Source: Candidatus Nomurabacteria bacterium (GTDB taxonomy: Bacteria > Patescibacteriota > Saccharimonadia > Saccharimonadales > Saccharimonadaceae). Taken from it: a stretch of 11,019 nt of DNA. Both the position numbers and the translations under genes were made by a program. The notes below the pieces were generated by a model. That model did not search any database. It was given only the letters and a program-made list of their open reading frames with translations, and was not told the DNA's origin. This document shows, in pieces, positions 1 to 11,019 of the stretch (its first letter is position 1; each line of letters begins with the position of its first letter). The stretch covers positions 1 to 11,019 of the forward strand of contig JAITSF010000022.1 of NCBI GenBank assembly GCA_031287975.1. Direction: 5' to 3'.

Positions 1-126
1 ACACGTCTTCCGCCGCAGCGGCATTGAGGGAAGGAAGTCCCAGGCTCGAGTATATGAAAATTTTTTATACTCTAGCCACCTGAATTGTTAAGGGGCATGG
101 GAACTACTAATAGCCCAACGTCCCAC
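1..126 (-). ncRNA. unidentified transcript (non-coding RNA or long leader), runs off the window
   Basis: A near-consensus promoter at 133-161 should start an RNA at about 126 reading leftward. No reading frame is sustained over this stretch. The first ATGs give very short frames that soon stop; only an ATG at 24 stays open to the edge, and it has no Shine-Dalgarno. The RNA would fold: 43-54 pairs with 66-77 (11 of 12 pairs, one mismatch at 47/73) around an 11-base A/T-rich loop at 55-65. No T-run follows the stem, so it is not a terminator. I compared it with the conserved motifs of RNase P RNA, tmRNA, SRP RNA, 6S RNA and the rRNA 5' ends and matched none. It could be a stable RNA, an rRNA operon leader, or the 5' UTR of a gene beyond the window. 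The transcript is inferred from the promoter only. Confidence 0.35.
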
Positions 127-132
127 CTCTCA

Positions 133-161
133 ATTGTAGCATACTTTGTCCGAAAAGTCAA
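133..161 (-). promoter_or_regulatory. sigma70-type promoter firing leftward out of the window
   Basis: The minus strand reads TTGACT (156-161), a 17-base spacer, then TACAAT (133-138), with TGC just before the -10 box, so both -35 and extended -10 elements are present. The predicted start is about 126. It is one of the two strongest-looking promoters in the window and nearly matches the one at 8579-8607. Confidence 0.7.
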
Positions 162-196
162 TACCTCGTATTGCCTCGACTACCATCATTGTCCAT
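158..196 (-). CDS. possible 12-codon micro-ORF after tRNA-Pro(GGG)
   Basis: On the minus strand an AAAGGAG Shine-Dalgarno (203-209) stands 6 bases before an ATG at 196. It opens a 12-codon frame (MDNDGSRGNTRY) ending in TGA at 158-160. That stop lies inside the -35 box of the leftward promoter. The ribosome binding site is one of the best in the window, but so short a frame can arise by chance and no family is recognisable. It would need read-through from tRNA-Pro(GGG) or an unseen promoter. It may be a leader peptide or simply chance. Confidence 0.15.
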   Translation of the reverse strand: MDNDGSRGNTRY

Positions 197-241
197 ACAT
201 ATCTCCTTTCTTCTTTCCAGTCAGTTTACGTAAGAACCTGA

Positions 242-317
242 TGGTCGGGGTAACAAGATTTGAACTTGCGACCTCACGGCCCCCAGCCGTGCGCGCTACC
301 AACTGCGCCACACCCCG
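242..317 (-). tRNA. tRNA-Pro (anticodon GGG)
   Basis: The minus strand folds as a 76-nt cloverleaf: acceptor CGGGGTG/TACCCCG with a closing G-U pair, D-stem GCGC/GCGC, anticodon stem CACGG/CCGTG with loop CTGGGGG (anticodon GGG, reading CCC and CCU), T-stem GCAAG/CTTGT with loop TTCAAAT, discriminator A and an encoded CCA (242-244). C1-G72 is the usual proline identity pair. It has its own likely extended -10 promoter to the right (326-334). No intrinsic terminator is evident downstream. Confidence 0.95.
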
Positions 318-325
318 ATAGACCT

Positions 326-334
326 ATCGTAACA
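326..334 (-). promoter_or_regulatory. extended -10 promoter of tRNA-Pro(GGG)
   Basis: The minus strand reads TGT then TACGAT (326-331), 8 bases before the mature tRNA 5' end at 317. No -35 box is recognisable. It is back to back with the promoter of the gene at 360; the two TG elements form the ends of the dyad 333-346 (arms CACAAA/TTTGTG). Confidence 0.45.
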
Positions 335-344
335 CAAAAATTTG

Positions 345-353
345 TGATATACT
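345..353 (+). promoter_or_regulatory. extended -10 promoter, probably leaderless, of the 129-aa membrane protein gene
   Basis: TGA plus TATACT (348-353) ends 6 bases before the ATG at 360, so the expected transcription start falls on or next to the start codon. There is no Shine-Dalgarno in the few bases between, and no convincing -35 box. Confidence 0.6.
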
Positions 354-359
354 ATTGTT

Positions 360-749
360 ATGAGTGCCAAAAAAAGATCCCCTGGAAAAGGCTGGTTGAT
401 CGCTGGTGTTATTATGATTTGTTTTGGTATTTTTGAGGCTTTCGGTTCGACTTTATCTAATATGGATCGACCAAGCAGCGATTATGCAGCGGCCGGTTCG
501 ATATTAGCGCTAATTGGTTTGCTCTTTCTGGCTATCTCGGTAGTTACTCGCTTGATCCATCGCCGTTACGGCGACACAGATGGCGACAACTTCGCCAACG
601 ATGGGTTGTCCGCAACCAAAACTCAACGAACCGAAATTTTGGAAATCATGCAAGCCAAAGGTGTATTTTGGGACCCCAAAACTAAGATAACTCAAAGCGA
701 AGCGCGAAAAATTATTCGTGAACACAAAAAAGTCGGCTCAAAAAAATAA
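360..749 (+). CDS. small two-TM membrane protein of unknown function
   Basis: 129 residues, family not recognised. A basic N-terminus (KKRSPGK) leads into hydrophobic helix 1 (about 11-29). A short loop of about 15 residues (30-43) and helix 2 (about 44-64) follow, then a mostly polar 65-residue tail with acidic and basic patches (RLIHRRYGDTDGD) and a predicted helical end (EILEIMQAK, SEARKIIREHKK). The likely topology is both ends in the cytoplasm. The ATG is favoured because an extended -10 box sits 6 bases upstream, implying leaderless translation. It is the only plus-strand gene in the left three quarters of the window, and its TAA directly abuts the stop of the convergent L,D-transpeptidase gene with no base between. 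Function cannot be assigned. A role beside the wall enzyme would be guesswork, because convergent genes are not co-transcribed. Confidence 0.8.
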   Translation: MSAKKRSPGKGWLIAGVIMICFGIFEAFGSTLSNMDRPSSDYAAAGSILALIGLLFLAISVVTRLIHRRYGDTDGDNFANDGLSATKTQRTEILEIMQAKGVFWDPKTKITQSEARKIIREHKKVGSKK

Positions 750-781
750 CTAATAGTGTACCACAACCCTCGTGCCGACTT
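730..781. terminator. possible long-loop inverted repeat between convergent genes
   Basis: AAGTCGGC at 730-737 pairs perfectly with GCCGACTT at 774-781, spanning both stop codons. On the minus strand the 3' arm runs into six T's, as in an intrinsic terminator for the L,D-transpeptidase gene. The 36-base loop is unusually long, so this is only a weak candidate. Confidence 0.2.
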
Positions 782-2243
782 CGGCAAAGTCGTAAACTTT
801 TTTGGCGTCCGCTTCAAACATATTGACACAGCCGTGGCTGATTCGCGAACGCACATTTCCGCCCAACCACGACGCGGTATGGAAAGCATAGCCGCCTGGC
901 CCCCAATACGTTACCCATTTGACACCCGGAATGCTGTAATAGGCATTATCGCCGACTTCCACTCCAGCCGTTCCGCCAGTCATCGTCTGAATCGGAAACT
1001 TCAAGAAAACTCGAAACGACCCAACGATTGTCGGCGTTGACGGCTTGCCATTGGCGGTGTTACTGGTGCTCCATAGCTGACTAGCGCCGTTCCACAGCGT
1101 CAGTGTGAAAGTCGATACATTATATTCAATCCACCGATTGTCTTCGGTAACGATTTTTTCGGTTTCAAACGGCGTTTCGACCAGTTTCATGTCAGCGTTC
1201 AAAGTTGCTCCGTCGACCAAAGCTTGCTTTATCTCGCCGACCAACCAATTGATATCGCTCGGCGCCATACCGTTCTTGCCGGCGGTTATTACCATCAAAG
1301 TTTCGCCGTCTTTGTTTACCAAAAGCTTTTCTGCTACCGGCGAACCAGACACCGACGGCGTCAATTTTTGATCCAAGAAAGTTTTAATTTTGTCGTCGCT
1401 GAAATTCACATCAAACTTTCCGGTTTCCGTATTCGGCGTAAACTCAAAAAACGCCGCAATATCCCACGGATCAATAAAGTACAAAACTTTGCCGTCATGT
1501 ATCATATTAAGTCGCAACTTCAGCCGCTCGTTTGCGTAATCACGCGCTTCGATAGCGTTTTCATCGCTGACTGTTGGGCTGGCTTCGCTCAAATTTACAT
1601 TTTGGATAACCTCGCGCGGGTGGCTGAGAACGTCGTTGATTGTCGGCATAACACTTTCCAAACTGATAATTTTACCGTCCTTACCAGATACAATTTCAAA
1701 AGCTTTTAGGTTATTTTTATAAGCCACAATCGGCTCGCTTATAGGGGTAGATATGGCGTAAAATTGCCCGTTTAAGTACTCTTGAACAACTTTTTTATCT
1801 ATTTGAACTATTAAATCATTTTCCTTTTTTATAAATGGATTAAACTTGGCGAAAATATTTCTTTCGTTGCCGGTATCCAACACCTTTTGAGCCGTAGCGT
1901 CGGCGTCTAAATTAACGCCCAGTTCCGGCAAAGTCGCGCGGACTATGACGTCCGAACTTGTTAAAGTCAGCTTGATTTTCTCAAATTCTTTCTCGGCGAT
2001 TTTCTTTATTTCGCTGGGAGTTTTGCCGCTAACTTCTACTCCCACCAAAAACGACGCTGGCGCAGCTTTCTCGCCGTACGATATAGCGTAAGCACTGCTG
2101 GCAGCCACAAAAACCAACAGTAACGCCGCCAATGTCGCAAAAGTAATCGCTCGGTGCTTGTGCTGGCGAACCGGATCTTGGCTGTATTTATTGTGCAACT
2201 TCGCCAAGTTCTGGCGGTAGCCGTCTTTCATGCTCTCAAACAT
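750..2243 (-). CDS. membrane-anchored L,D-transpeptidase (YkuD) with PG_binding_4-type N-terminal part
   Basis: 497 residues. L,D-transpeptidases make 3-3 peptidoglycan cross-links, or attach groups to the wall, outside the membrane. A cytoplasmic tail of about 32 residues (KHKHR-like basic end) precedes one TM helix (about 33-53), so it is probably a type II anchored enzyme. Residues about 65-360 resemble two PG_binding_4-type repeats (VGVEVSGKTPSEI is the usual entry motif of the first). The YkuD domain spans about 371-497, with the catalytic H455...S469-H470-G471-C472 signature (SHGCVNM), so the active site looks intact. The ATG has an extended -10 box 6 bases upstream and no Shine-Dalgarno. 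It is flanked by tRNA-Pro(TGG) upstream and a convergent small membrane protein gene downstream. The domain call is confident; the exact reaction (cross-linking or protein anchoring) is not determined here. Confidence 0.93.
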   Translation of the reverse strand: MFESMKDGYRQNLAKLHNKYSQDPVRQHKHRAITFATLAALLLVFVAASSAYAISYGEKAAPASFLVGVEVSGKTPSEIKKIAEKEFEKIKLTLTSSDVIVRATLPELGVNLDADATAQKVLDTGNERNIFAKFNPFIKKENDLIVQIDKKVVQEYLNGQFYAISTPISEPIVAYKNNLKAFEIVSGKDGKIISLESVMPTINDVLSHPREVIQNVNLSEASPTVSDENAIEARDYANERLKLRLNMIHDGKVLYFIDPWDIAAFFEFTPNTETGKFDVNFSDDKIKTFLDQKLTPSVSGSPVAEKLLVNKDGETLMVITAGKNGMAPSDINWLVGEIKQALVDGATLNADMKLVETPFETEKIVTEDNRWIEYNVSTFTLTLWNGASQLWSTSNTANGKPSTPTIVGSFRVFLKFPIQTMTGGTAGVEVGDNAYYSIPGVKWVTYWGPGGYAFHTASWLGGNVRSRISHGCVNMFEADAKKVYDFAEVGTRVVVHY

Positions 2244-2249
2244 AGTGTA

Positions 2250-2258
2250 ATTATATCA
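2250..2258 (-). promoter_or_regulatory. extended -10 promoter of the L,D-transpeptidase gene (leaderless)
   Basis: The minus strand reads TGA then a perfect TATAAT (2250-2255), ending 6 bases before the ATG at 2243. No Shine-Dalgarno fits in between. No -35 box is evident. It sits in the 43-base gap after tRNA-Pro(TGG), so the gene can be transcribed alone. Confidence 0.7.
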
Positions 2259-2286
2259 TATCTAAAGATATTAAACAAAAACAAAA

Positions 2287-2364
2287 TGGTCGGGGTGAGA
2301 GGACTCGAACCTCCGACCTCCGCGTCCCAAACGCGGCGCGCTAGCCTGGCTGCGCCACACCCCG
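2287..2364 (-). tRNA. tRNA-Pro (anticodon TGG)
   Basis: The minus strand folds as a 78-nt cloverleaf: acceptor CGGGGTG/CACCCCG, D-stem GCGC/GCGC with a 10-base loop, anticodon stem CCGCG/CGCGG with loop TTTGGGA (anticodon UGG), T-stem GGAGG/CCTCT with loop TTCGAGT, discriminator A and encoded CCA (2287-2289). It is the second proline tRNA in 2.1 kb and shares its first 15 bases with tRNA-Pro(GGG). It lies between ftsA and the L,D-transpeptidase gene, with its own promoter at 2379-2387. Confidence 0.96.
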
Positions 2365-2378
2365 ATGTGTGCTGATTT

Positions 2379-2387
2379 ATTATAGCA
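2379..2387 (-). promoter_or_regulatory. extended -10 promoter of tRNA-Pro(TGG)
   Basis: The minus strand reads TGC then TATAAT (2379-2384), 14 bases before the mature tRNA 5' end at 2364. This leaves a 5' leader of about 8 bases for RNase P. It begins only 2 bases after the ftsA stop codon. No -35 box is visible. Confidence 0.65.
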
Positions 2388-2389
2388 TA

Positions 2390-3586
2390 TTATTTACCGG
2401 ACTTTTTGAAAAACCATTTTTTGGCTTTTTTCGGTTTCATAACAGCAATGTCGTCTTTAATATCGACAATCATTAAACCCAGCGCTGTCGACCAAGCCGG
2501 TCCGCTAACCTTGTCGCCTAGTCCACCAAATTTATGCATTTCGCTAACTTTGGCGTTTAGCTTCATAACTTCCTTAGCGCACTCGGCGATTCCGGTCAAC
2601 TCTGCGCCACCGCCCGTCAACACTACTCCGCCCGGCAATTTAGCATAGCGATCAACTCGCCGCAACTCTAAATTCACCAACTCAAAAATCTCTTCCATAC
2701 GCGCTTCAACGATTTGATCAACCAAAGCCGTTTCAAAATAATGATCACGACCGTCTGCCATAATTTTTATCCGTCCGGATTTGCGGCGCTGACTGGCAGC
2801 CGCCACCGCGTAATCGACTTTGACTTTTTCGGCAATTTCGAGATCGGTCCGCAGCCCAATCGCCAAATCATTAGTAACATTATTCCCACCCACCGGCAAA
2901 ATCGCTGTGTGGTACAGTTCACCTTCGTCGTAAATTATAATATTAGTCGTCGTGCCGCCGATATCAACACAAACAACACCATTTTCTTTTTGATTGCGCG
3001 AAAGCGTAGTTTGCGCCGCCGCCAAACCGCTCGGCAAAATTGTAGTTTTCGGTAGCTCCACCAAGTCAAAAACCTTTTCTAAATTGTTAATGTGCGGCGT
3101 CAGCCCCGAAATAATGTATGAGTCAACTTCCAAACGCAACCCCGACATACCAATCGGATCTTTAATATTAGTTTGCCCGCCCAGAATAAATCCGCGGGTC
3201 GTAATATCCAAAATTTCGCGGTTGTCGCCCAGTTGGATCAACGAAGCATCCTGTTCCACTCGCCGCACGTCCTCCGGCATAACCTCCCGACCTGTTACAG
3301 CAATCGCGCCGTGTGAAGTCTGACCGACAATATGTGCGCCGTTTATACTAACAGTAGCGCTGACGATGTGATAGCTCGCCATTTTTTCCGCCCCCGACAG
3401 CGCCTTGTCCAAGGCAGCCGCAGTTTGATCGATACTAATAATCGTGCCTTTGCGCATACCGGAATTTTTAACCTCGCTAAACCCAACAATAATTGGCCTG
3501 TTCTTGCCCTCAGCCATTCCAATCGCCACCCGCACCGAATTTGTGCCGATATCAATTCCAACGCCGTAGTGATTTTCGCCTTGCAT
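2390..3586 (-). CDS. ftsA: cell division protein FtsA
   Basis: 398 residues, close to the usual FtsA length. FtsA is an actin-like ATPase that ties FtsZ filaments to the membrane. The phosphate-1 loop is GVGIDIGTNSVRVAIG (8-23); the 1C/SHS2 region covers about 83-160; SGLAAAQTTL is at 186-195; the phosphate-2 loop VCVDIGGTTTN is at 205-215; the adenosine motif LTGGGAEL is at 323-330. The tail KKAKKWFFKKSGK (386-398) is basic with an aromatic face, as expected of the FtsA membrane-targeting helix. The start is fixed by the phosphate-1 loop beginning at residue 8. The gene follows map by 21 bases and has its own -10 box in that gap. Unusually, no ftsZ follows: the next genes are tRNA-Pro and an L,D-transpeptidase gene. 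PilM/MreB relatives share the fold, but the SHS2 region and C-terminal helix favour FtsA. Confidence 0.93.
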   Translation of the reverse strand: MQGENHYGVGIDIGTNSVRVAIGMAEGKNRPIIVGFSEVKNSGMRKGTIISIDQTAAALDKALSGAEKMASYHIVSATVSINGAHIVGQTSHGAIAVTGREVMPEDVRRVEQDASLIQLGDNREILDITTRGFILGGQTNIKDPIGMSGLRLEVDSYIISGLTPHINNLEKVFDLVELPKTTILPSGLAAAQTTLSRNQKENGVVCVDIGGTTTNIIIYDEGELYHTAILPVGGNNVTNDLAIGLRTDLEIAEKVKVDYAVAAASQRRKSGRIKIMADGRDHYFETALVDQIVEARMEEIFELVNLELRRVDRYAKLPGGVVLTGGGAELTGIAECAKEVMKLNAKVSEMHKFGGLGDKVSGPAWSTALGLMIVDIKDDIAVMKPKKAKKWFFKKSGK

Positions 3587-3592
3587 ATTATT

Positions 3593-3601
3593 ATATTAGC
3601 A
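3593..3601 (-). promoter_or_regulatory. -10 promoter of ftsA (leaderless)
   Basis: The minus strand reads TGC then TAATAT (3593-3598), 6 bases before the ATG at 3586. An overlapping TATAAT (3590-3595) is only 3 bases away and gives no workable start site for the full gene. There is no Shine-Dalgarno. Read-through from map is also possible, since only 21 bases separate the genes. Confidence 0.45.
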
Positions 3602-3607
3602 CAAACT

Positions 3608-4363
3608 TTATAGTGTCGTCAAAATCTCGCAACCGTCTTCTGTTACTAAAATCGTATGTTCCATATGCGCCGCCAAACTGCCGTCCCTAGTCCGAAAAGT
3701 CCAGCCGTCGCTGTCCTGCACCACCGCGTCGCCGCCCAAAGTTACCATTGGCTCGATACAAATCGTGTCGCCCACCTGTACCATTGACCCGCGCCCGCGT
3801 GTCCCATAATTTGGAATATCCGGATCCATATGAACCGCCTCGCCGATTCCATGCCCAGCCAAATCCCGCACAATCCCACACTTAGCCTTGTCTAAAACTT
3901 CCTCAACCGCCGCGCCAATATCGCCAACATGAAAAGTCCCTTTAGCTTGCGCAATTCCAGCCTGAAGCGCTCGTTCGGTCGCACTTAACAAATGTTTTTT
4001 AGCGCCGGTCGGCTTGTCCTCGCCCACCACCACAGTAAAAGCCGAATCAACATTCATACCTTTATAAGTTATTACCAAATCAAAACTAACCACATCGCCC
4101 AGCTCCAAAAAAGCCTTAGTCGGCACACCATGAACCACTTCATCATTTGTCGAAATGCAAATCGCGCCCGGAAAATTAATTTCGGGCGTTTTATAAGTTA
4201 CAATCGCGCCGTGTTTTTTAATCTGATGCTCAACCCACTTATCTAAAAACAGCTCGCTGACACCCGGTTTAATTTGCTCTTTCAAATCCGCAAAAATTTG
4301 CGCCATGATTTTCCCGCCGCGACGCATCGCTTCAATTTGATAGTCAGTTTTCGGCGGCTGCAT
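3608..4363 (-). CDS. map: type I methionine aminopeptidase
   Basis: 251 residues, typical of type I enzymes. It removes the initiator methionine from new proteins in the cytoplasm. The five metal ligands line up as D95 (SFDLV), D106 (NVDSA), H171 (GHGIG), E204 (CIEPM) and E235 (MEHT), with the substrate-binding histidine at H78 (VVHGVP). There is no N-terminal zinc-finger extension. The start codon overlaps the adk stop by one base (TAATG), with AGAGGA a few bases upstream, so translation is probably coupled to adk. adk-map is an old pairing known from the spc ribosomal protein operon, but secY and the ribosomal genes are absent here. All key residues are present, so I expect an active enzyme. 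Confidence 0.97.
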   Translation of the reverse strand: MQPPKTDYQIEAMRRGGKIMAQIFADLKEQIKPGVSELFLDKWVEHQIKKHGAIVTYKTPEINFPGAICISTNDEVVHGVPTKAFLELGDVVSFDLVITYKGMNVDSAFTVVVGEDKPTGAKKHLLSATERALQAGIAQAKGTFHVGDIGAAVEEVLDKAKCGIVRDLAGHGIGEAVHMDPDIPNYGTRGRGSMVQVGDTICIEPMVTLGGDAVVQDSDGWTFRTRDGSLAAHMEHTILVTEDGCEILTTL

Positions 4364-4914
4364 TATTCCTCTCGTTCCAATTTCGCTTCGCTTAAAGCCA
4401 CATCAATCCTGTCATGCACTTCGCCGACCGTGCCAATACCATCAACCACTTTCACAATCACACCATTCTTTTTTAGAAAATCTATAATCGGTTCAGTTTC
4501 AAAATTATATTGTTCAATTCGTTTTTTAATAATTTCCGGACTGTCTTCCATTCGACCACGTAAATGCAAACGATTATAAATCTCATCGCTATCAACCCGA
4601 AGAACCACCAAAGCCGACACTTTAGCGCCGTATTTTAGCAATTCTTCAGCCTGTTCAATGCGCCGAGGATAACCGTCCAAAATTATATGATCCAATCCGT
4701 CGAGATTCAAAGCTTTGTCGATATGCCGAAAAACCAACCGGTTAATGTAATCATCAGACACTAATTTACCCTCGCTCAAAATCGCCATAGTTTCCGGATC
4801 AGAGATATCGCGCAACAACTGCCCTGTCGAAATCCAACGCCAACCATGGCGCGCTGCCATCAGCTGCCCTTGCATGCTTTTGCCAGAACCAGTCGGCCCA
4901 AAAAATAAAATCAT
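4363..4914 (-). CDS. adk: adenylate kinase / nucleoside monophosphate kinase (short LID)
   Basis: 183 residues. Adenylate kinases interconvert AMP, ATP and ADP. The P-loop GPTGSGKS is at 6-13 with K12; the NMP-site motif STGQLLRD is at 29-36; DGYPRR is at 80-85; the LID arginines follow in LRGRMEDSPEIIKKR (118-132). The LID is the short form, without the extra domain or zinc cysteines of long bacterial Adk, so specificity among AMP, UMP and CMP cannot be settled from sequence. AMP is favoured by the link to map. The start is right because the P-loop begins four residues in. A TGG+TACAAT box lies 7 bases before the ATG and no Shine-Dalgarno is present. It is the first gene of an adk-map(-ftsA) unit, 37 bases downstream of yqeY. 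Confidence 0.92.
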   Translation of the reverse strand: MILFFGPTGSGKSMQGQLMAARHGWRWISTGQLLRDISDPETMAILSEGKLVSDDYINRLVFRHIDKALNLDGLDHIILDGYPRRIEQAEELLKYGAKVSALVVLRVDSDEIYNRLHLRGRMEDSPEIIKKRIEQYNFETEPIIDFLKKNGVIVKVVDGIGTVGEVHDRIDVALSEAKLEREE

Positions 4915-4921
4915 ACTAACG

Positions 4922-4930
4922 ATTGTACCA
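4922..4930 (-). promoter_or_regulatory. extended -10 promoter of adk (leaderless)
   Basis: The minus strand reads TGG then TACAAT (4922-4927), ending 7 bases before the ATG at 4914, with no Shine-Dalgarno between. The -35 position holds only a weak TTTAAT. The yqeY-adk gap is A/T-rich and has no terminator hairpin. Confidence 0.55.
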
Positions 4931-4951
4931 CTTTTTTATTCAGTATTAAAT

Positions 4952-5401
4952 TTAATTTAACAATTCTTTAACAATTTTAGCAATCAGCGCGCCGTCGCCG
5001 CGAGTACCGACTTCCTTTTTGATATCGCCGATAGCTCGCCCCATATCCTTAATAGAAAACCCACCGGTCGAAATTACCCGCTCAGCAATCTGCCGCAACT
5101 CGTCCTCGCTCAGCGGCTCCGGCAAAAACTTCGCCAAAACCTCGCGCTCCGCCAGCTCTTTCTCAGCACGAGCCTTGTCTCCAGCGGCGGTGTAAATTTC
5201 AATCGAATCATCACGCTGCTTAACTTGCCGAGCGATAACTTTCTCAATTTCCTCATCGCTTAGCCCTTCGTCGCGCTTGATTTGCTTGATTTCTTCGTTC
5301 AAAATCGCCGATTTCAAATCACGCAGCACACCCGTCAAAAACTCGTCGCGCGCCAACATAGCGGATTTCAGTTTCGCCGCAATATCTTCCTTAACACTCA
5401 T
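4952..5401 (-). CDS. yqeY: GatB/YqeY domain protein
   Basis: 149 residues, the usual length. YqeY proteins are related to the C-terminal tail domain of GatB, the tRNA-dependent amidotransferase subunit that contacts tRNA; the role of the free-standing form is not firmly known. The N-terminal helical part has the typical start (VKEDIAAKLKSAMLARDEFLTGVLRDLKSAILNEEI). The middle has ARQVKQRDDSIEIYTAAGDKARAEKELAERE, the end KDMGRAIGDIKKEVGTRGDGALIAKIVKELL; all are family-typical. A GGAGG Shine-Dalgarno (5408-5412) stands 6 bases before the ATG. The gene begins 18 bases after the rpsU stop, a pairing seen in many bacteria, so the two are probably one transcript. Confidence 0.94.
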   Translation of the reverse strand: MSVKEDIAAKLKSAMLARDEFLTGVLRDLKSAILNEEIKQIKRDEGLSDEEIEKVIARQVKQRDDSIEIYTAAGDKARAEKELAEREVLAKFLPEPLSEDELRQIAERVISTGGFSIKDMGRAIGDIKKEVGTRGDGALIAKIVKELLN

Positions 5402-5419
5402 CTTCTCCCTCCCGCAAAA

Positions 5420-5641
5420 CTATTTCGTCAAACCCATTTTAATAGCTAAAATCTTCTTGTTTTGCCGATTCCGGTTGATAATAGCTTTCTTGCGTCGCTC
5501 AATTTTGCTAATCGGTTTCGAAAACCGCTCGACTGATTTGGCTTTCGCAATCACACCCGACTGCAAAACCCGCCGATTAAACCGACGAATAATATTCTCA
5601 TTCGCCTCTTTTTCGTCTTTTCTGGTTACTTGTATACTCAT
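5420..5641 (-). CDS. rpsU: 30S ribosomal protein S21
   Basis: 73 residues, strongly basic. S21 binds the 30S platform near the 3' end of 16S rRNA, close to the anti-Shine-Dalgarno region. The family pattern is clear in the first half (a short strand, then ENIIRRFNRRVLQSGVIAKAKSVERFSKP) and is followed by a basic tail (ERRKKAIINRNRQNKK). The ATG is the natural start for the family, and a TGA+TAGTAT box lies 8 bases upstream without a Shine-Dalgarno. It leads the rpsU-yqeY pair and starts 33 bases after the end of recJ. The apparent leaderless start is noteworthy, because S21 in other bacteria promotes Shine-Dalgarno recognition. Confidence 0.95.
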   Translation of the reverse strand: MSIQVTRKDEKEANENIIRRFNRRVLQSGVIAKAKSVERFSKPISKIERRKKAIINRNRQNKKILAIKMGLTK

Positions 5642-5649
5642 ATCAGACC

Positions 5650-5658
5650 ATACTATCA
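5650..5658 (-). promoter_or_regulatory. extended -10 promoter of rpsU (near-leaderless)
   Basis: The minus strand reads TGA then TAGTAT (5650-5655), 8 bases before the ATG at 5641. The predicted start lies within 0-2 bases of the ATG. No purine-rich ribosome binding site is present. Confidence 0.5.
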
Positions 5659-5674
5659 GAAACTGCCCGCTTTT

Positions 5675-7309
5675 TCAAGACTTTTGTTCCAACCACGCAA
5701 TCCGCCCCTCGACAGACTGCGCGCCATTCCATTCGTTAACCTCTAAATTCGCCCAAACATCGACCCTGTCGCCGAGCTCCACAAACCAATTTTCCGGCGG
5801 GTCGAAAGCCAGCAGTTTCAACTGCTTCGCGCCGTCGTCAATCGTCAACTTCAGATGATTTTTGTCTTTGCCGATCCTATCAACATATTTAGCCGACATG
5901 CCGCTCAAACGAAACACCGGTCGCTCATTACCCATACCAAACGGCTCTAATTTCGCCAACTCCTCGACCAACTCCAAACTTAACTCACTCACCGTCGCCG
6001 CTTCAACATCTTCACTTGGCAATAAAAACTTTTCCTGATTTTTCAAACCCAGCGACCCGTAAAATTCCTGCAAAGCCTGCCGCCATTTTCCGATATTTTT
6101 CGTAGCCAAACTCGCCCCGCCAGCCGCCGCATGTCCGCCACCTTTCGTCAAATACTGGCGTGTCGCCGCAATCGCCGCCGCTAACGCAAAATCTCCGAAA
6201 GACCTCCCACTGGCTTTCGCCTCAGCAGCGTTTTTCGACACCACAATCGCCGGTCGCCGATATTTTTCCATCACTTTACTCGCCACAATCCCAATCACAC
6301 CCTCGTTCCAACCCTCGCCGTCAACCACAACAATACCTCTCGCCAAATCCGGATCGGCTTCCAACTTCAAAACCACTTCGCCGAAGATTCTGTCTTGTTC
6401 GGCGCGCCGCTCCAGGTTCAGCTCATCCAACCGACGCGCCAACTCCAAAGCTCGCGTATTATTAGCCGTCGTCAAAAGCTCTAGCGCCTGTTTAGCGGTT
6501 TCCAACCGTCCAGCAGCGTTCAATCTCGGACCTAACACAAACCCCAACTGCCGCGCACTAACCTCACTCGGTCGCATTTTCGCCACCGCCATCAACGCCC
6601 GCAGCCCCGCCCGCCGAGTTTTTTTCAGCACCTCCAACCCCCAATAAACATTATTACGATTCTCATTCACTAGCGGCACAATATCACAAACCGTCCCTAA
6701 TGCCACCAAATCCAAAAGCCACTTTTCCTGCCCGCTCGGCAGACCGTCCAACTTTGTCTGCAAAGCCTGTACTAACTTAAACGCCACCCCACAGCCCGCC
6801 AAGTCCGCGAACGGATACTTATCATATTTACGATGCGGATTGATAACCGCCACCGCCTCTGGCAGCTTTTCGCCGACGACGTGATGATCGGTTACAATCA
6901 CGTCCACCCCTAACCGGTTAGCTTCCGCCACCTCATCAACACTCAAACTGCCGCAATCAACCGTTACCACTAAATTCGCGCCGCCGCTCGCTAACTTTTC
7001 GACAGCCTCCATATTTAGCCCATAACCCTCTGTAAAACGATCCGGCGTATAAGTCGAAATATCCAGCCCAAACTTAGGCAAAGCGTCCGCCAATATCGCC
7101 GTCGCCGCAATGCCATCGACATCATAATCGCCGTAAATTACCACTTTGTCATTTTGTTCAACCGCCTGGATAATCCGCCTTACCGCCTTGTCCATATCGC
7201 TCAACAAAAACGGGTCGTGCTTCGTCGCATTATAATCCGGATTCAAAAAAGCCTGCGTATCAACCACGCCGCGCTTTTTCAAAATCTTCTCAATAACCCC
7301 GTTCTTCAT
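5675..7309 (-). CDS. recJ: single-stranded-DNA-specific 5'-3' exonuclease RecJ
   Basis: 544 residues, slightly shorter than the 577-residue E. coli enzyme. RecJ degrades single strands 5' to 3' in recombination and mismatch or excision repair. The DHH part holds YGDYDVDG (59-66; D61, D63, D65), VTVDCG (115-120), TDHH (140-143) and GTVCDIVPL (205-213). GPRLNAAGR (260-268) lies beyond. The DHHA1 motif GGGHAAAGG is at 390-398. The C-terminal OB fold (about 440-540) includes LEPFGMGNERPVF. All manganese ligands are present. The ATG has a TGA+TATGAT box 6 bases upstream and no Shine-Dalgarno. The upstream gene ends in a strong terminator, so recJ must be transcribed from this promoter. The stop is TGA. 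Downstream is rpsU with its own promoter. Confidence 0.96.
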   Translation of the reverse strand: MKNGVIEKILKKRGVVDTQAFLNPDYNATKHDPFLLSDMDKAVRRIIQAVEQNDKVVIYGDYDVDGIAATAILADALPKFGLDISTYTPDRFTEGYGLNMEAVEKLASGGANLVVTVDCGSLSVDEVAEANRLGVDVIVTDHHVVGEKLPEAVAVINPHRKYDKYPFADLAGCGVAFKLVQALQTKLDGLPSGQEKWLLDLVALGTVCDIVPLVNENRNNVYWGLEVLKKTRRAGLRALMAVAKMRPSEVSARQLGFVLGPRLNAAGRLETAKQALELLTTANNTRALELARRLDELNLERRAEQDRIFGEVVLKLEADPDLARGIVVVDGEGWNEGVIGIVASKVMEKYRRPAIVVSKNAAEAKASGRSFGDFALAAAIAATRQYLTKGGGHAAAGGASLATKNIGKWRQALQEFYGSLGLKNQEKFLLPSEDVEAATVSELSLELVEELAKLEPFGMGNERPVFRLSGMSAKYVDRIGKDKNHLKLTIDDGAKQLKLLAFDPPENWFVELGDRVDVWANLEVNEWNGAQSVEGRIAWLEQKS

Positions 7310-7315
7310 ATTTCT

Positions 7316-7324
7316 ATCATATCA
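7316..7324 (-). promoter_or_regulatory. extended -10 promoter of recJ (leaderless)
   Basis: The minus strand reads TGA then TATGAT (7316-7321), ending 6 bases before the ATG at 7309. It begins only a few bases beyond the T-tract of the upstream terminator, which isolates it. No Shine-Dalgarno or -35 box is seen. Confidence 0.7.
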
Positions 7325-7326
7325 CT

Positions 7327-7355
7327 AAAAGAAAGCAGCCCCTAATTGGGGCTGC
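7327..7355 (-). terminator. intrinsic terminator overlapping the end of the 101-aa membrane protein gene
   Basis: On the minus strand GCAGCCCC (7355-7348) and GGGGCTGC (7342-7335) form a perfect 8-bp GC-rich stem with a 5-base loop, followed by TTTCTTTT (7334-7327). The last codons and the TAG stop of the upstream gene lie inside the hairpin. This is the clearest terminator in the window. Confidence 0.88.
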
Positions 7356-7647
7356 CGTCTTCGTTTTTCTCTTCGTGTCGTCGTACTTGCACGGCTTTTT
7401 TAGCACGCCACTTACCTACACAGTAGGCAATTAGGCAAAAACCGATTAAGCAGACAGTGGATACCAGCAAGTACCGCTGCCCAGCACCCACAGCCGAAAA
7501 TATCGCTGCGACTATAGCGATGATAATCGCGTATTTGGCAGTGAAGACCGAATTATAACATCCGTCAACAAAAAAATTCTCTGTGAACAGCTCAAACGCG
7601 GATGCCGCCACCGCCGCAAAGGCGATACACCAAACAATTTCTATCAT
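7342..7647 (-). CDS. small three-TM membrane protein of unknown function
   Basis: 101 residues, family not recognised. Hydrophobic stretches at about 3-20, 38-55 and 58-77 suggest three membrane helices. A short basic tail (GKWRAKKAVQVRRHEEKNEDG) ends the protein, probably in the cytoplasm by the positive-inside rule. Five cysteines (7, 30, 66, 71, 76) are unusual for so small a protein. The ATG at 7647 is chosen over one 11 codons upstream because an AAGGAG Shine-Dalgarno (7654-7659) stands 6 bases before it, while the upstream one has none. It has its own extended -10 promoter at 7730-7738 and an untranslated leader of about 75 bases with a hairpin, and it ends in a terminator, so it is a single-gene transcript. 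Confidence 0.8.
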   Translation of the reverse strand: MIEIVWCIAFAAVAASAFELFTENFFVDGCYNSVFTAKYAIIIAIVAAIFSAVGAGQRYLLVSTVCLIGFCLIAYCVGKWRAKKAVQVRRHEEKNEDGSPN

Positions 7648-7695
7648 CTTTTTCTCCTTAAGTCGAAGGTCGAAAAACAAAAACGAAACGTACCA

Positions 7696-7720
7696 GTAAT
7701 CAGACCAAAAGCCTAATTAC
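7696..7720 (-). promoter_or_regulatory. hairpin in the 5' UTR of the three-TM protein gene
   Basis: GTAATTAG (7720-7713) pairs with CTGATTAC (7703-7696) over 8 positions, one a G-U, around a 9-base loop. The RNA starts at about 7723, so the stem lies at its very 5' end. No T-run follows directly. It may stabilise the mRNA or regulate it; neither is shown. Confidence 0.35.
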
Positions 7721-7729
7721 CACTTTCTT

Positions 7730-7738
7730 ATTGTATCA
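7730..7738 (-). promoter_or_regulatory. extended -10 promoter of the three-TM protein gene
   Basis: The minus strand reads TGA then TACAAT (7730-7735). The TGA (7736-7738) is also the stop codon of the upstream acyltransferase gene. The start is predicted near 7723, giving a leader of about 75 bases with a good Shine-Dalgarno. Confidence 0.55.
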
Positions 7739-8551
7739 CACTTGCTCTCGATTGTCAATACCAACTTTATCCGCATAAAAACCGCGATTTTCCTCTGGCA
7801 GTAACTCCGCGATTTTCGTCATAACAAAATCCGACAAGTTCATACCAGTATCATTATCGCCGACCGTAACAGCCTCGCCGACAACAATCTTCGACCGACC
7901 ATCATCCTCAGTATAAGCCACCGGCAAAATATCCAATTTCTGACCTGTCCGCCTTTCGTAATGTTTCGCTAATAATTCCATACCGCGATAAGCCTCTCGC
8001 AAATGCGGCTTTTGCTTGACAGCGCCGCTTTTCGGACCATCCTCAGACAACTCCGTATGCACGCCCTCTGGAAAAATACTAACCGCATCACCCCGAACCA
8101 ACAACTCAACGGCGTTCCGGACATAACCAATATTATTCTTAGCCCGCACCCACTGACTTTGATTCACAGTATTATCAACCGCCCGCGTGTGTAATTTATC
8201 GCCCTCCAACCGATTCTTAGCTATCTGTTCCGGTGTCTGTTTAGCCAGCGATTCATCGACTTCCAACATCCCCAACCGTTTAGCAATTCCACCCCACGCC
8301 ATATCCATATTAGAATGTTTCCCTGCTGTCATATGTATATTATTTTTCGAAAACACATTCATAATACTCACAACATCGCCACCGCCAAAGTGGTTCGATA
8401 CCACCAAAAACGGCTTGTCCTCGGGGATATTTTCCTTTCCAACAATCTCAGTTTTAACAAGTTTGTCGATAAAAATACCCGCCACTTTGCTCAGCAGTGT
8501 CTGGTTTTCGAGATGCTTCGGTAGTTCCCAAGTCGTTTCTTTTTGTGTCAT
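7736..8551 (-). CDS. PlsC-like lysophospholipid/glycerol-phosphate acyltransferase
   Basis: 271 residues. This family transfers acyl chains to glycerol-phosphate or lysophosphatidate at the inner face of the membrane. Block I is NHFGGGD (53-59; H54 and D59 form the catalytic HX4D pair). Block III is FPEG (160-163), with E162-G163 for phosphate binding. ILPVAYT (208-214) fits block IV. No clear TM helix is present; the hydrophobic N-terminal stretch (LLSKVAGIFIDKLV) could be an interfacial helix. Between blocks I and III is a charged insert (about 100-140), longer than in small PlsC proteins. The gene has a near-consensus promoter (8579-8607) and an AAGGA site 5 bases before the ATG. It ends in TGA. 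Whether it makes lipids from its own or a host's acyl chains cannot be told here. Confidence 0.85.
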   Translation of the reverse strand: MTQKETTWELPKHLENQTLLSKVAGIFIDKLVKTEIVGKENIPEDKPFLVVSNHFGGGDVVSIMNVFSKNNIHMTAGKHSNMDMAWGGIAKRLGMLEVDESLAKQTPEQIAKNRLEGDKLHTRAVDNTVNQSQWVRAKNNIGYVRNAVELLVRGDAVSIFPEGVHTELSEDGPKSGAVKQKPHLREAYRGMELLAKHYERRTGQKLDILPVAYTEDDGRSKIVVGEAVTVGDNDTGMNLSDFVMTKIAELLPEENRGFYADKVGIDNREQV

Positions 8552-8578
8552 GTTTTTCCTTTTTTAGATTATACTGAC

Positions 8579-8607
8579 AGTGTAGCATACTTTTTAAAAA
8601 AAGTCAA
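8579..8607 (-). promoter_or_regulatory. sigma70-type promoter of the acyltransferase gene
   Basis: The minus strand reads TTGACT (8602-8607), a 17-base spacer, then TACACT (8579-8584), with TGC before the -10 box. The start is predicted near 8572, giving a leader of about 20 bases that holds the Shine-Dalgarno AAGGA (8557-8561). An overlapping TATAAT (8568-8573) might be a second -10. Confidence 0.7.
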
Positions 8608-8628
8608 TATCCACAAGCGTTTACCTCT

Positions 8629-8928
8629 TTAAAAGTTAATGTTGTCTTGCTTCTTGCCCTTCGAGGCCTGTTGAGATTTAATCACGATATTTTGCAATTC
8701 TTTGAAAATCGGGAAAGTTTTGTTGGTCGAATAAATTTTGGCGTTGCCTTTTCTTTCAATCGACAGGAAACCAGATTTTTCCAGCCGTTTTAGCTCGCGT
8801 TGAATATTGCCTGGGTCTTCCTTTATTAGTTTTGCCAGCCCCCGCACGTGCGTCTTGAAATCAGGGTATTTGGCATAAACCACAATTATTTTCCGTCGCA
8901 CTCGGCTTGTTATAAACACATCCAGCAT
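8629..8928 (-). CDS. winged-helix (ArsR/MarR-like) transcriptional regulator
   Basis: 99 residues, basic. The N-terminus (MLDVFITSRVRRKIIVVYAKYP) is helix 1 of a winged helix. HVRGLAKLIKEDPGNIQRELKRLEKSGFL (27-55) gives the helix-turn-helix with its recognition helix around 40-49; SIERKGNAKIYSTNKTFPIFKEL (56-78) is the wing and the following helix. The last 20 residues are a lysine- and glutamine-rich tail. No metal-binding cysteines occur at all, so a classical metal-sensing ArsR role is unlikely. An AAGGGG site lies 5 bases before the ATG, with a promoter at 8970-8998. It is divergent from priA and upstream of the acyltransferase gene; it could regulate either or itself, but no target is proved. 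Single-domain regulators of this form are common in Patescibacteria and Archaea. Confidence 0.8.
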   Translation of the reverse strand: MLDVFITSRVRRKIIVVYAKYPDFKTHVRGLAKLIKEDPGNIQRELKRLEKSGFLSIERKGNAKIYSTNKTFPIFKELQNIVIKSQQASKGKKQDNINF

Positions 8929-8959
8929 TTCTTCCCCTTACTTCTCCCGTTATTCGTAA

Positions 8960-9000
8960 TGTTGTAAATATTATACACCGCCTTTTTAAAAAATACAACA
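8960..9000. promoter_or_regulatory. promoter of the winged-helix gene flanked by an inverted repeat (candidate operator)
   Basis: The minus strand carries TTGTAT (8993-8998), a 17-base spacer and TATAAT (8970-8975). A perfect 7-bp inverted repeat, TGTTGTA (8960-8966) and TACAACA (8994-9000), brackets it: one arm covers the -35 box, the other lies just past the -10. Centre-to-centre spacing is 34 bases, a little over three helical turns. Autoregulation by the neighbouring winged-helix protein is a reasonable inference. Confidence 0.45.
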
Positions 9001-9031
9001 CTTTTTTTCTGAACTTTAGCCGACTTCGGTG

Positions 9032-9037
9032 TAAAAT
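9032..9037 (+). promoter_or_regulatory. -10 box of priA (leaderless)
   Basis: TAAAAT ends 6 bases before the priA ATG at 9044. TG directly precedes it, without the usual extra base. There is no Shine-Dalgarno and the -35 region is poor. The spacing matches the other leaderless genes in the window. Confidence 0.45.
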
Positions 9038-9043
9038 AGTGAT

Positions 9044-11019
9044 ATGAATTATCTAGAAGTTAGTCCGTACGGGGTGGTTGGCAAGGATTTTTTGGTTTTA
9101 ACTTACGCGTCGGCCGCGACATTACCGGCTGGCGCGGTGGTGGAAATTCCGGTTGGCCAGCGAAAATTTGTCGGCGTGGTGCTAAGAACCGTGCCGAAAC
9201 CACAGTTTGAATGTAAAGAAATCCTGCGCGTTCTAACTGACCGACCATTACCGCCAGCCTTACTGGCTCTACAGCAATGGCTTAGCCAATATTACCTAAC
9301 CCACCCCAGCACAGTTTGGCAGACCATACTACCAGCTGGACTAAACAAAAGCCGTCGCACCCAGTCGCCTGCTACAAGTGCTGCAAGGACCGTCCTTGCA
9401 GCAAATAAGCAAAAAGGCCTTTGCTGCAAGGACCGTCCTTGCAGCAAAGAGTTAACGTTCGATCAACAAACCGCCATCAGCCAAATCCTAAAAATGAAAT
9501 CCGGCACTGCCCTGCTACACGGTATCACTGGCAGTGGCAAAACCGAAGTCTACAAAGCTTTGGCCATGCAAGCTGCCGCGCGTGGCAAATCCTCGATAAT
9601 CCTTGTTCCGGAAATCTCTCTAACCGCCCAACTAGTCGCCGAATTTAAGAAAGATTTCAGCCACGTAATCGTTACCCACTCCAAACAAACCGAAGCCGAA
9701 CGCCACCTAATTTGGCTAGAAGCTTTAAATGCCGATCAACCAGTTGTCGTCATCGGTCCGCGCTCGGCCTTATTTATGCCGGTTAACAATCTCGGCTTTA
9801 TCGCCATCGATGAATGCCACGAGCCCAGTTACAAACAAGAAAAAGCCCCCCGCTACAGCGCCCTGCGCGCCGCTAGCGTGTTGGCCGAAAAATCCGGCGC
9901 GCGGCTGGTGTTAGGTTCTGCCACACCGCTCATTGCCGACTATTTTACCGCCCAAAAACTCGGTCGTCCGATTATTAAAATGAACCAACTAGCTCGCCCC
10001 GACGCCGTCAAACCCAAAACCACCGTCATCGACATGACCCGGTCCAGCGCTGGCTCGAAAAACCCGATTTTTTCCAAACCGTTGCTCGAAGCTATGGAAA
10101 AAACTCTGGTAAACAACAAACAAATCCTAATCTTCCACAACCGTCGCGGCAGCGCGCCAGTTACACTCTGCGAAAATTGCGGCTGGACAGCTTTCTGTCC
10201 GCGCTGCTTTGTGCCGCTGACACTTCATGTTGACAAACACCAACTCAAATGCCACATCTGCGGACACCACGAGCCGCCGCCGACTTCGTGTCCGGTTTGC
10301 CGCGAAGCTAATATTATCCACAAAGGACTCGGCACTAAAATGATAGAGTCGGAAATCCGCAAACTTTTTCCAGACGCCACTGTCCGGCGTTTTGACGGCG
10401 ACAACCCTAGCGGCGAAGGCGTCCATGATATGTATGACGAACTAAAATCTGGCAAGATAAACATTATTATCGGTACGCAAACTATCGCTAAAGGTTTGGA
10501 CTTGCCGAATCTAACGCTGGTCGGTATCCCGCAAGCCGACGCTGGGTTAATGCTGCCGGATTTCTCGTCGTCTGAGCGGACGTTCCAACTCATCGCCCAA
10601 GCCGCTGGTCGAGTCGGTCGCAACAAAGCCGCCAGCCAAGTTATTATCCAAACCTATCAGCCCAAACACCCCGCCGTGGTCTGCGGCTCAACCCAAAATT
10701 ACAAAGCTTTTTACGACTTCGAAATCAAAAACCGCCAAAAAAACCACTTCCCGCCGTTTGCACACCTGCTCAAATTAACCAATTCCTACAAAACCGAAAA
10801 ATCCGCCATCAATTCCGCCCGCAAACTAGCCCTGCTAATTGCAAATGATTCGCAATTAGCCAAAATCCACATTCTCGGTCCGACACCAGCCTTCTACGAA
10901 CGCCAACGCGACTTATGGCGCTGGCAAATCATCGTCCGCGCCGCCAAACGCGCCGACCTCGTTAAAGTCGCCGGCCTAATCCCGCCCCAACATTGGCAAT
11001 CCGAACTCGACCCCAACTC
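9044..11019 (+). CDS. priA: primosomal protein N' (replication restart helicase PriA), 3' end outside the window
   Basis: Open for 658 codons to the window edge; by comparison with E. coli only a short tail is missing. PriA is a 3'-5' helicase that reloads the replisome at stalled forks. The N-terminal DNA-binding domain covers 1 to about 105 (MNYLEVSPYGVVGKDFLVL...VPVG-like core). Walker A GITGSGKT is at 160-167 and the DEAH-type box reads DECH at 256-259 (E. coli has DEEH). Eight zinc cysteines are intact: C376, C379, C385, C388, C403, C406, C416, C419. The late helicase motifs GTQTIAKGLD and QAAGRVGR follow. Walker A lies about 64 residues earlier than in E. coli, because the winged-helix region (about 105-140) is replaced by a short linker coded by two palindromic repeats. 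Frame and motifs are unbroken, so it is probably functional. The ATG matches the family start and has a -10 box 6 bases before it. Confidence 0.96.
   Translation, partial: MNYLEVSPYGVVGKDFLVLTYASAATLPAGAVVEIPVGQRKFVGVVLRTVPKPQFECKEILRVLTDRPLPPALLALQQWLSQYYLTHPSTVWQTILPAGLNKSRRTQSPATSAARTVLAANKQKGLCCKDRPCSKELTFDQQTAISQILKMKSGTALLHGITGSGKTEVYKALAMQAAARGKSSIILVPEISLTAQLVAEFKKDFSHVIVTHSKQTEAERHLIWLEALNADQPVVVIGPRSALFMPVNNLGFIAIDECHEPSYKQEKAPRYSALRAASVLAEKSGARLVLGSATPLIADYFTAQKLGRPIIKMNQLARPDAVKPKTTVIDMTRSSAGSKNPIFSKPLLEAMEKTLVNNKQILIFHNRRGSAPVTLCENCGWTAFCPRCFVPLTLHVDKHQLKCHICGHHEPPPTSCPVCREANIIHKGLGTKMIESEIRKLFPDATVRRFDGDNPSGEGVHDMYDELKSGKINIIIGTQTIAKGLDLPNLTLVGIPQADAGLMLPDFSSSERTFQLIAQAAGRVGRNKAASQVIIQTYQPKHPAVVCGSTQNYKAFYDFEIKNRQKNHFPPFAHLLKLTNSYKTEKSAINSARKLALLIANDSQLAKIHILGPTPAFYERQRDLWRWQIIVRAAKRADLVKVAGLIPPQHWQSELDPN
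9379..9403. repeat. 25-bp perfect palindrome, copy 1, inside priA
   Basis: Arms TGCTGCAAGGAC and GTCCTTGCAGCA (12 bp each, perfect) flank a single central C. It is in frame within priA, coding about residues 112-120 (AARTVLAA). No T-run follows. It is identical to copy 2, 43 bases on. Confidence 0.9.
9422..9446. repeat. 25-bp perfect palindrome, copy 2, inside priA
   Basis: Base-for-base identical to copy 1 and separated from it by 18 bases (9404-9421). The 43-base offset shifts the reading frame, so this copy codes CCKDRPCS (residues 127-134). Each copy is self-complementary, so the two can also pair with each other. No further copy was seen in the window. Confidence 0.9.
10834..10860. repeat. 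9-bp inverted repeat inside the 3' part of priA
   Basis: GCTAATTGC (10834-10842) and GCAATTAGC (10852-10860) are perfect inverted copies around a 9-base loop, coding residues LLIANDSQLA. No T-run follows. Its sequence is unrelated to the 25-bp palindromes. Confidence 0.55.

Follow-up and report, generated by a model that had tools for sequence, protein, structure and literature searches.

Extended -10 boxes adjoining start codons suggest leaderless genes in a member of Saccharibacteria

Several genes in an 11,019 nt stretch of Candidatus Nomurabacteria bacterium (GenBank assembly GCA_031287975.1; contig JAITSF010000022.1, coordinates 1 to 11,019), here called the window, have a TAnnnT box lying so close to the ATG that it can be asked whether transcription begins at the start codon itself, giving leaderless messages. 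The window carries 12 protein genes and two tRNA-Pro genes. As reported in a preliminary description, the box ends 6, 6, 6, 7, 8, 6 and 6 bases before the ATGs at positions 360, 2243, 3586, 4914, 5641, 7309 and 9044, respectively. TGn directly precedes the box in six of the seven cases, the exception being the gene at 9044, where GTG is found, and AGGA, GGAG and GAGG are absent at Shine-Dalgarno (SD) distance from all seven starts.

The first box, TGA-TATACT (coordinates 345 to 353, forward strand), precedes an open reading frame (ORF; 360 to 749, forward) that was not assigned to a family and had no matches in Pfam and NCBIfam profile searches. On the reverse strand, TGA-TATAAT (2250 to 2258) precedes an L,D-transpeptidase (YkuD) gene (750 to 2243; Pfam), TGC-TAATAT (3593 to 3601) precedes ftsA (2390 to 3586; Pfam and comparison among relatives), TGG-TACAAT (4922 to 4930) precedes adk (4363 to 4914; Pfam), TGA-TAGTAT (5650 to 5658) precedes rpsU (5420 to 5641), and TGA-TATGAT (7316 to 7324) precedes recJ (5675 to 7309; Pfam). 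The product of rpsU, bS21, was assigned from relatives and from weak profile matches (PF01165 and TIGR00030, each below its own cut-off). The last box, TAAAAT without TGn (9032 to 9037, forward), precedes priA (9044 to 11017, forward; NCBIfam), which continues past the window end. All boxes were read from the sequence, and those before 360, 2243, 3586 and 7309 were also matches to the genome-wide pattern below. The seven genes are predicted to be leaderless, adk and recJ at least here, and rpsU with either no leader or one of up to about 3 nt.

The genome consists of 506,008 bases in 78 contigs and is 70% complete, and gene-level and spacing counts were made on 39 of these contigs. The pattern TGNTANNNTN6ATG was found 97 times in the whole genome, compared with 6 for the pattern read backwards, though this control is crude and gene-level nulls were preferred. 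When box-to-ATG distances from 0 to 40 were counted without gene calling, 46 boxes were at distance 6, 21 at 7, 15 at 8, 15 at 9 and about 9 at each distance elsewhere, and the same count gave no peak at distance 6 for GTG, TTG or CTG. Among 234 called genes, TANNNT ended 6 bases before the first ATG in 49, against a background of 6.9 per position. The TGn-extended form was present at this distance in 35 of the 234 genes (background mean 0.79 per position, distances 13 to 40), so that TGn stood in front of 35 of the 49 boxes compared with 0.79 in 6.9 for the background. Where an extended box was at 6, the candidate start was ATG in 38 cases, TTG in 2 and GTG in 0. The box geometry is not due to chance.

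The preliminary description had proposed plotting the distance from box to start across the genome together with its overlap with SD presence, and the present counts gave the peak at 6 and only rare overlap. When any ATG within 20 codons was allowed and boxes 6 to 9 bases before it were counted, 74 of 239 genes had a box (null 13.6), 95 had an SD (null 18.8) and 3 had both. The leaderless-type share above the null is therefore about 25% of the sampled genes (74 minus 13.6 of 239). Under a stricter box definition, and counting from the first ATG alone, 62 of 234 genes had only a box, 90 only an SD and one had both. SD words in this genome peaked 4 to 8 bases before the ATG.

The two signals were also distributed by gene context. 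Where the upstream neighbour is on the opposite strand, 30 of 58 genes had a box (null 4.8) and 17 an SD. For genes downstream of a same-strand neighbour, a box and an SD were found in 22 (null 3.6) and 14 of 44 at 26 to 100 bp, in only 6 (null 0.8) and 18 of 35 at more than 100 bp, and in 13 (null 3.2) and 43 of 92 at no more than 25 bp. Contig-edge genes had each signal in 3 of 10 cases. Among the genes with the plainest need for a promoter of their own, leaderless starts would thus make up about half, and the earlier description goes too far in making leaderless mRNA the default for first genes.

The anatomy of the boxes resembles that of a promoter. The consensus upstream of the 46 genes with spacing 6 was T-R-T-G-n-T-A-n-A-A-T, but selection of this set required TG or a fifth box base of A, which inflates its counts for both, and the figure of 35 in 49 was used instead. 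TTG was found at a 17 bp spacer in 11 of 67 box genes, with 0 to 5 at every other spacer from 8 to 44, and a -35 score of at least 4 was obtained for 26 of the 67, where 9.4 were expected. Promoter-word scoring in the window identified TTGAAA (5673 to 5678, reverse) with a 17 bp spacer to the rpsU box, and the -35-like TTGACG (3617 to 3622, reverse) with an 18 bp spacer to the ftsA box. A pyrimidine was present at -1 in 39 of the 46 spacing-6 genes. The corresponding figures are 42 of 88 for SD genes (Fisher p 3e-5) and 489 of 932 for internal ATGs, a difference that would follow if transcription began on the A of the ATG. Of 39 first genes led by an SD, 6 also carry the element TGNTANAAT at 20 to 29 bp upstream of the ATG, compared with an expectation of 0.12, and there it appears to be the same promoter with a short leader. 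The genome encodes a sigma-70 family factor, with one Sigma70_r2 match. Identification of the boxes as sigma-70-type -10 elements is strongly supported by these sequence features.

Genes with spacing 9 were considered separately. The triplets before the ATG were mixed in 34 pooled cases, and the idea that these genes use a near-cognate codon at the end of the mRNA was rejected. A purine at -3 was present in 8 of 8 spacing-9 genes but is not distinctive, as 68 of 88 SD genes also have one. A pyrimidine at -4 was found in 7 of the 8, compared with 35 of 88 SD genes, and fits a shifted start better, although n is 8.

Conservation was examined by locating relatives of the window proteins using tblastn, taking the nearest ATG and scoring a box 5 to 10 bases before it; the gene at 360 was left out. 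Of 27 ftsA hits in Saccharibacteria, one lay at an edge and one aligned too late, and all 25 scored loci have a box, whereas outside this clade 6 of 51 scored loci (53 hits) have a box and 16 an SD. Likewise, the rpsU box is present in 21 of 21 scored Saccharibacteria relatives but in 0 of 10 outside the clade, where 7 of 10 have an SD. Of the 19 priA hits in the clade, 5 aligned too late, and 13 of the 14 that were scored have the box. The same scoring applied to SD-led genes of the window found a box in relatives of map in 4 of 24 cases, of yqeY in 3 of 20 and of the winged-helix gene in 1 of 20. The box in relatives of ftsA is mostly TATAcT and lacks TG, and the common form of their promoter (L001 to L024 and L026) is approximately AAGCGnTATAcT. 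In most rpsU relatives, a TctGnTAnAAT box follows a TTG at about 17 bp, and the distance from box to ATG is 6, 7, 8, 9 and 10 in 1, 4, 7, 5 and 4 loci, respectively, suggesting that the leader may be 0 to 3 nt. The preliminary description placed rpsU in the leaderless set; with distances of 7 to 10 in 20 of 21 relatives, a leader of 0 to 3 nt is just as likely as none.

Taken together, the data indicate, with a probability of roughly 0.9, that the boxes are sigma-70-type -10 elements, that the A of the ATG, or a position at most about 3 nt away, is the transcription start, and that the messages are translated leaderless. The seven boxes, mostly TG-extended, would position the transcription start on this A or no more than about 3 nt away. 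The resulting mRNAs would open at the start codon, or almost there, and be translated as leaderless messages. A ribosome already carrying initiator tRNA probably recognises the 5'-terminal AUG, an initiation route suggested by work on other organisms (PMC10783764, PMC12340547). The anti-SD of the same organism is intact, and SD-led initiation serves most of the tightly packed downstream genes in which a signal is present, together with some of the first genes. The two initiation modes proposed in the preliminary description are thus backed by the genome-wide spacing, the -35 spacing, the base before the ATG, the exclusion of SD and the conservation of three of the seven genes.

The usual 16S rRNA 3' end is GGATCACCTCC. 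The 16S rRNA of this genome (L147, identified by Rfam match) ends GGATTACCTCCTTTCT, indicating that the anti-SD is intact, and CCTCC was found at the 16S 3' end in this genome and 7 relatives. Patterns for the 3' end that assumed GGNTCACC matched in 0 of 1 and 0 of 26 genomes, and the eight loci actually read GGATTACC. The 3' end is GGATTACCTCC in all 8 loci (L142 to L149). Initiation factor 3 (IF3) is present in 24 of 26 genomes, this one included, and leaderless messages elsewhere respond to the balance of IF2 and IF3 according to the available text of PMC10783764. The same text describes some other candidate phyla as SD-scarce, with no mention of Saccharibacteria or Patescibacteria in that part. 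YchF, said to promote translation of leaderless mRNA, is broadly conserved, as noted within a discussion of reduced ribosome biogenesis in PMC12641178.

Box position, the near-exclusion of SD, promoter anatomy and the conservation of three genes can be read directly in the genomes, and the actual 5' ends are all deduced from sequence, which is one of several points that weigh against leaderless translation from these boxes. Gene starts outside the homology set came from a home-made caller and a first-ATG rule, and the first ATG of 81 of 234 genes had neither a box nor an SD. Within the window, only ftsA, rpsU and adk, 3 of the 7 genes, are preceded by -35-like words with at least 4 matches. 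Relatives of adk have a box in 3 of 23 scored cases and an SD in 12 of 23, those of recJ have a box in 1 of 12 (L002), and the L,D-transpeptidase relatives in L001 and L002 have none 5 to 10 bases before the start (0 of 2). As ftsA, rpsU and priA are conserved but these three are not, the leaderless geometry is probably old for the former, and looks recent or local for adk, recJ and the L,D-transpeptidase gene. In addition, only 14 of 25 ftsA, 11 of 21 rpsU and 6 of 13 priA relatives have a purine as the seventh base after the box. Some of those purines are the start codon's own A, which spacing 6 places at the seventh base, and at other spacings the counts are 4 of 15, 10 of 20 and 2 of 9, respectively. 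A fixed start base in the relatives of these three genes is not supported.

These irregularities bear on the possibility that the boxes are true -10 elements from which initiation is scattered, so that most mRNAs have leaders of 1 to 8 nt, a view that overlaps with the one adopted here, which allows about 3 nt. It would account for spacings 7 to 9 also being above background, for distances of 7 to 10 in 20 of 21 rpsU relatives and for the often non-purine base at the expected start in relatives of ftsA, rpsU and priA. However, the commonest distance is 6, which places +1 on the A of the ATG, and a pyrimidine precedes this A in 39 of 46 cases; scattered initiation is therefore considered possible but rather doubtful.

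It is very unlikely that the motif is instead a translation signal in the RNA, an A/T-rich unstructured ribosome site by the AUG, with the real promoters further upstream. Many bacteria have an A/T-rich region before non-SD starts, and Patescibacteria outside the clade combine few SD (41 of 463 genes) with only a small box excess (5%), both points in its favour. Against it stand the sigma-70 signature in the DNA (TGn in 35 of 49, TTG mostly at a 17 bp spacer and a pyrimidine before the A) and the recurrence of the element 20 to 29 bp upstream of 6 of 39 SD-led first genes, where 0.12 were expected. Coincidence between compact intergenic space and A/T-rich upstream DNA can draw on the many short intergenic regions (for 92 of 239 genes, a same-strand neighbour is no more than 25 bp away), but is already contradicted, and has next to no likelihood, given the sharp peak at one distance, its restriction to ATG, its rarity with SD and the conservation at ftsA across 41 to 64% FtsA identity. 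The same procedure gave an excess of one gene in Bacilli and none in Anaerolineae/Chloroflexi or FCPU426.

In an FtsA tree, the window grouped with L001 and L002 (support 1.0), nested in a clade (support 1.0) of loci titled Saccharibacteria, Saccharimonadia or TM7, and the organism thus appears to sit among the Saccharibacteria. FtsA of the relatives is 41 to 64% identical. The record titles of L001 and L002 give Nomurabacteria and that of L026 gives Chlamydiae, in disagreement with the tree, which places all three in Saccharibacteria. The likeness to Deinococcus-Thermus and Actinobacteria drawn in the preliminary description holds, with the correction that, from record titles and the FtsA tree, the lineage here is Saccharibacteria.

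Spread was measured as matches to TGNTANNNTN6ATG over the control, summed per group. The ratio was 5.11 in the organism's own family (241 genomes), 2.68 in other families of the order (119), 2.73 in other orders of the class (32) and 2.16 in other classes of the phylum (108 of 116 genomes, the remaining 8 belonging to the class). The TGn form is strongest in its own family. By matches over control plus one, this genome ranked 11th of 392. Among 44 genomes reached via FtsA loci, the two nearest had 117 matches versus 13 and 78 versus 7, while Cytobacillus had 170 versus 128 and one FCPU426 genome 26 versus 40.

At the gene level, the excess of TANNNT at 6 to 8 was 20% of 234 genes in this genome, 27% of 20 in L001 and L002, 14% of 155 in ten genomes of strong genera, 9% of 71 in four of weak genera, 13% of 75 in other families of the order and 14% of 402 in Saccharibacteria FtsA loci. 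It fell to 5% of 463 in other Patescibacteria and 1% of 90 (one gene) in Bacilli, and was zero by the same procedure in Anaerolineae/Chloroflexi (n=116) and FCPU426 (n=76). The pair from other orders of the class (L140 and L141) had no usable gene start and is outside this comparison. With the first-ATG rule, a Deinococcus deserti plasmid gave 1% of 40 (0.5 gene, no peak) and a Thermus plasmid 12% of 44, whereas, judged by annotated starts in 50 kb stretches, 6 of 41 D. deserti plasmid 2 genes and 7 of 47 Thermus pTT27 genes have TANNNT at 6 to 8. As the D. deserti control shows no peak by first ATG but 6 of 41 by annotated starts, the first-ATG rule seems poor for GC-rich DNA.

Low-GC Gram-positives have extended -10 promoters with TRTGn in front of the -10, and TRTGn likewise precedes the box here, but often directly at the start codon. 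Mycobacterial leaderless mRNAs use GTG starts, whereas GTG was absent from the candidate starts with an extended box at 6. In the available text of Zheng et al. 2011 (PMC3160421), TA-led genes, with the first T of TANNNT about 12 bp before the start and no SD, are described in 207 of 953 bacterial genomes, the box being preceded by TG in low-GC Firmicutes, and average leaderless shares are 19.2% in Actinobacteria, 39.4% in Deinococcus-Thermus and 26.5% in Aquificae. The genome studied here resembles these in its genome-wide TANNNT peak and the lack of SD at such starts, involving about 25% of sampled genes. The groups named in that text do not include Saccharibacteria; 'TM7' and 'candidate' are absent from it, and one genome is given as 'unclassified in RefSeq'. 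In Deinococcus-Thermus, the part available of Zhong et al. 2025 (PMC12340547) describes a -10 directly before the ORF, with a spacing requirement shown by mutation and strengthening by a -35. The -10 motif adjoins the ORF here too, but is mostly TG-extended and A/T-richer (TAnAAT). A large predicted set of leaderless messages in one genome also resembles the leaderless transcriptome of Mycobacterium tuberculosis (PMC3898074).

A literature search found no description of leaderless mRNA in Saccharibacteria, most subscription papers being outside its scope and prior notice being possible in a gene-finder paper. In the text available, 'leaderless' occurred only within references, on protein secretion (PMC6851277) and a gene finder (PMC7441243). 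Leaderless genes adjoining a -10 are established in Actinobacteria, Deinococcus-Thermus and others (PMC3160421, PMC12340547), and Saccharibacteria would be an added lineage.

Saccharibacteria are host-dependent bacteria, some of the human mouth, and little was found on their gene expression. Should roughly a quarter of their genes prove leaderless, starts would be misplaced by gene-finding programs built around an SD or a leader, reporter constructs would need the promoter at the ATG, and translation should respond to the IF2/IF3 balance, as that of leaderless messages does elsewhere (PMC10783764). A core including ftsA, rpsU and priA may have remained leaderless, or had leaders of only a few nt, ever since the Saccharibacteria ancestor. 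The supply of bS21 would then bypass the SD route, on which rpsU of other Patescibacteria seems to rely, and the two routes could be balanced via bS21; this is a tentative suggestion. bS21 sits beside the anti-SD, and the clade-wide rpsU box, set against an SD in 7 of 10 outside relatives, makes a link between bS21 and initiation route testable.

Five other genes in the window have SD-like sequences on the reverse strand, as described earlier. These are GAGG (4368 to 4371) for map (ATG 4363, overlapping the adk stop), a GGGAGGGAG stretch (5405 to 5413) for yqeY (ATG 5401), AAGGAG (7654 to 7659) for an ORF with three transmembrane segments (ATG 7647), AGGA (8557 to 8560) for an acyltransferase gene (ATG 8551) and the weaker AAGGGG (8934 to 8939) for the winged-helix gene (ATG 8928). 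The three-transmembrane ORF (7342 to 7647) had no NCBIfam match and, like the ORF at 360 to 749, is a small gene to which no family could be assigned. The convergent genes at 360 to 749 and 750 to 2243 abut at 749/750 with 0 bases between them. The palindrome TGCAAGGACCGTCCTTGCA occurs twice within the priA reading frame (9382 to 9400 and 9425 to 9443), and a copy of its core is also found on contig L103.

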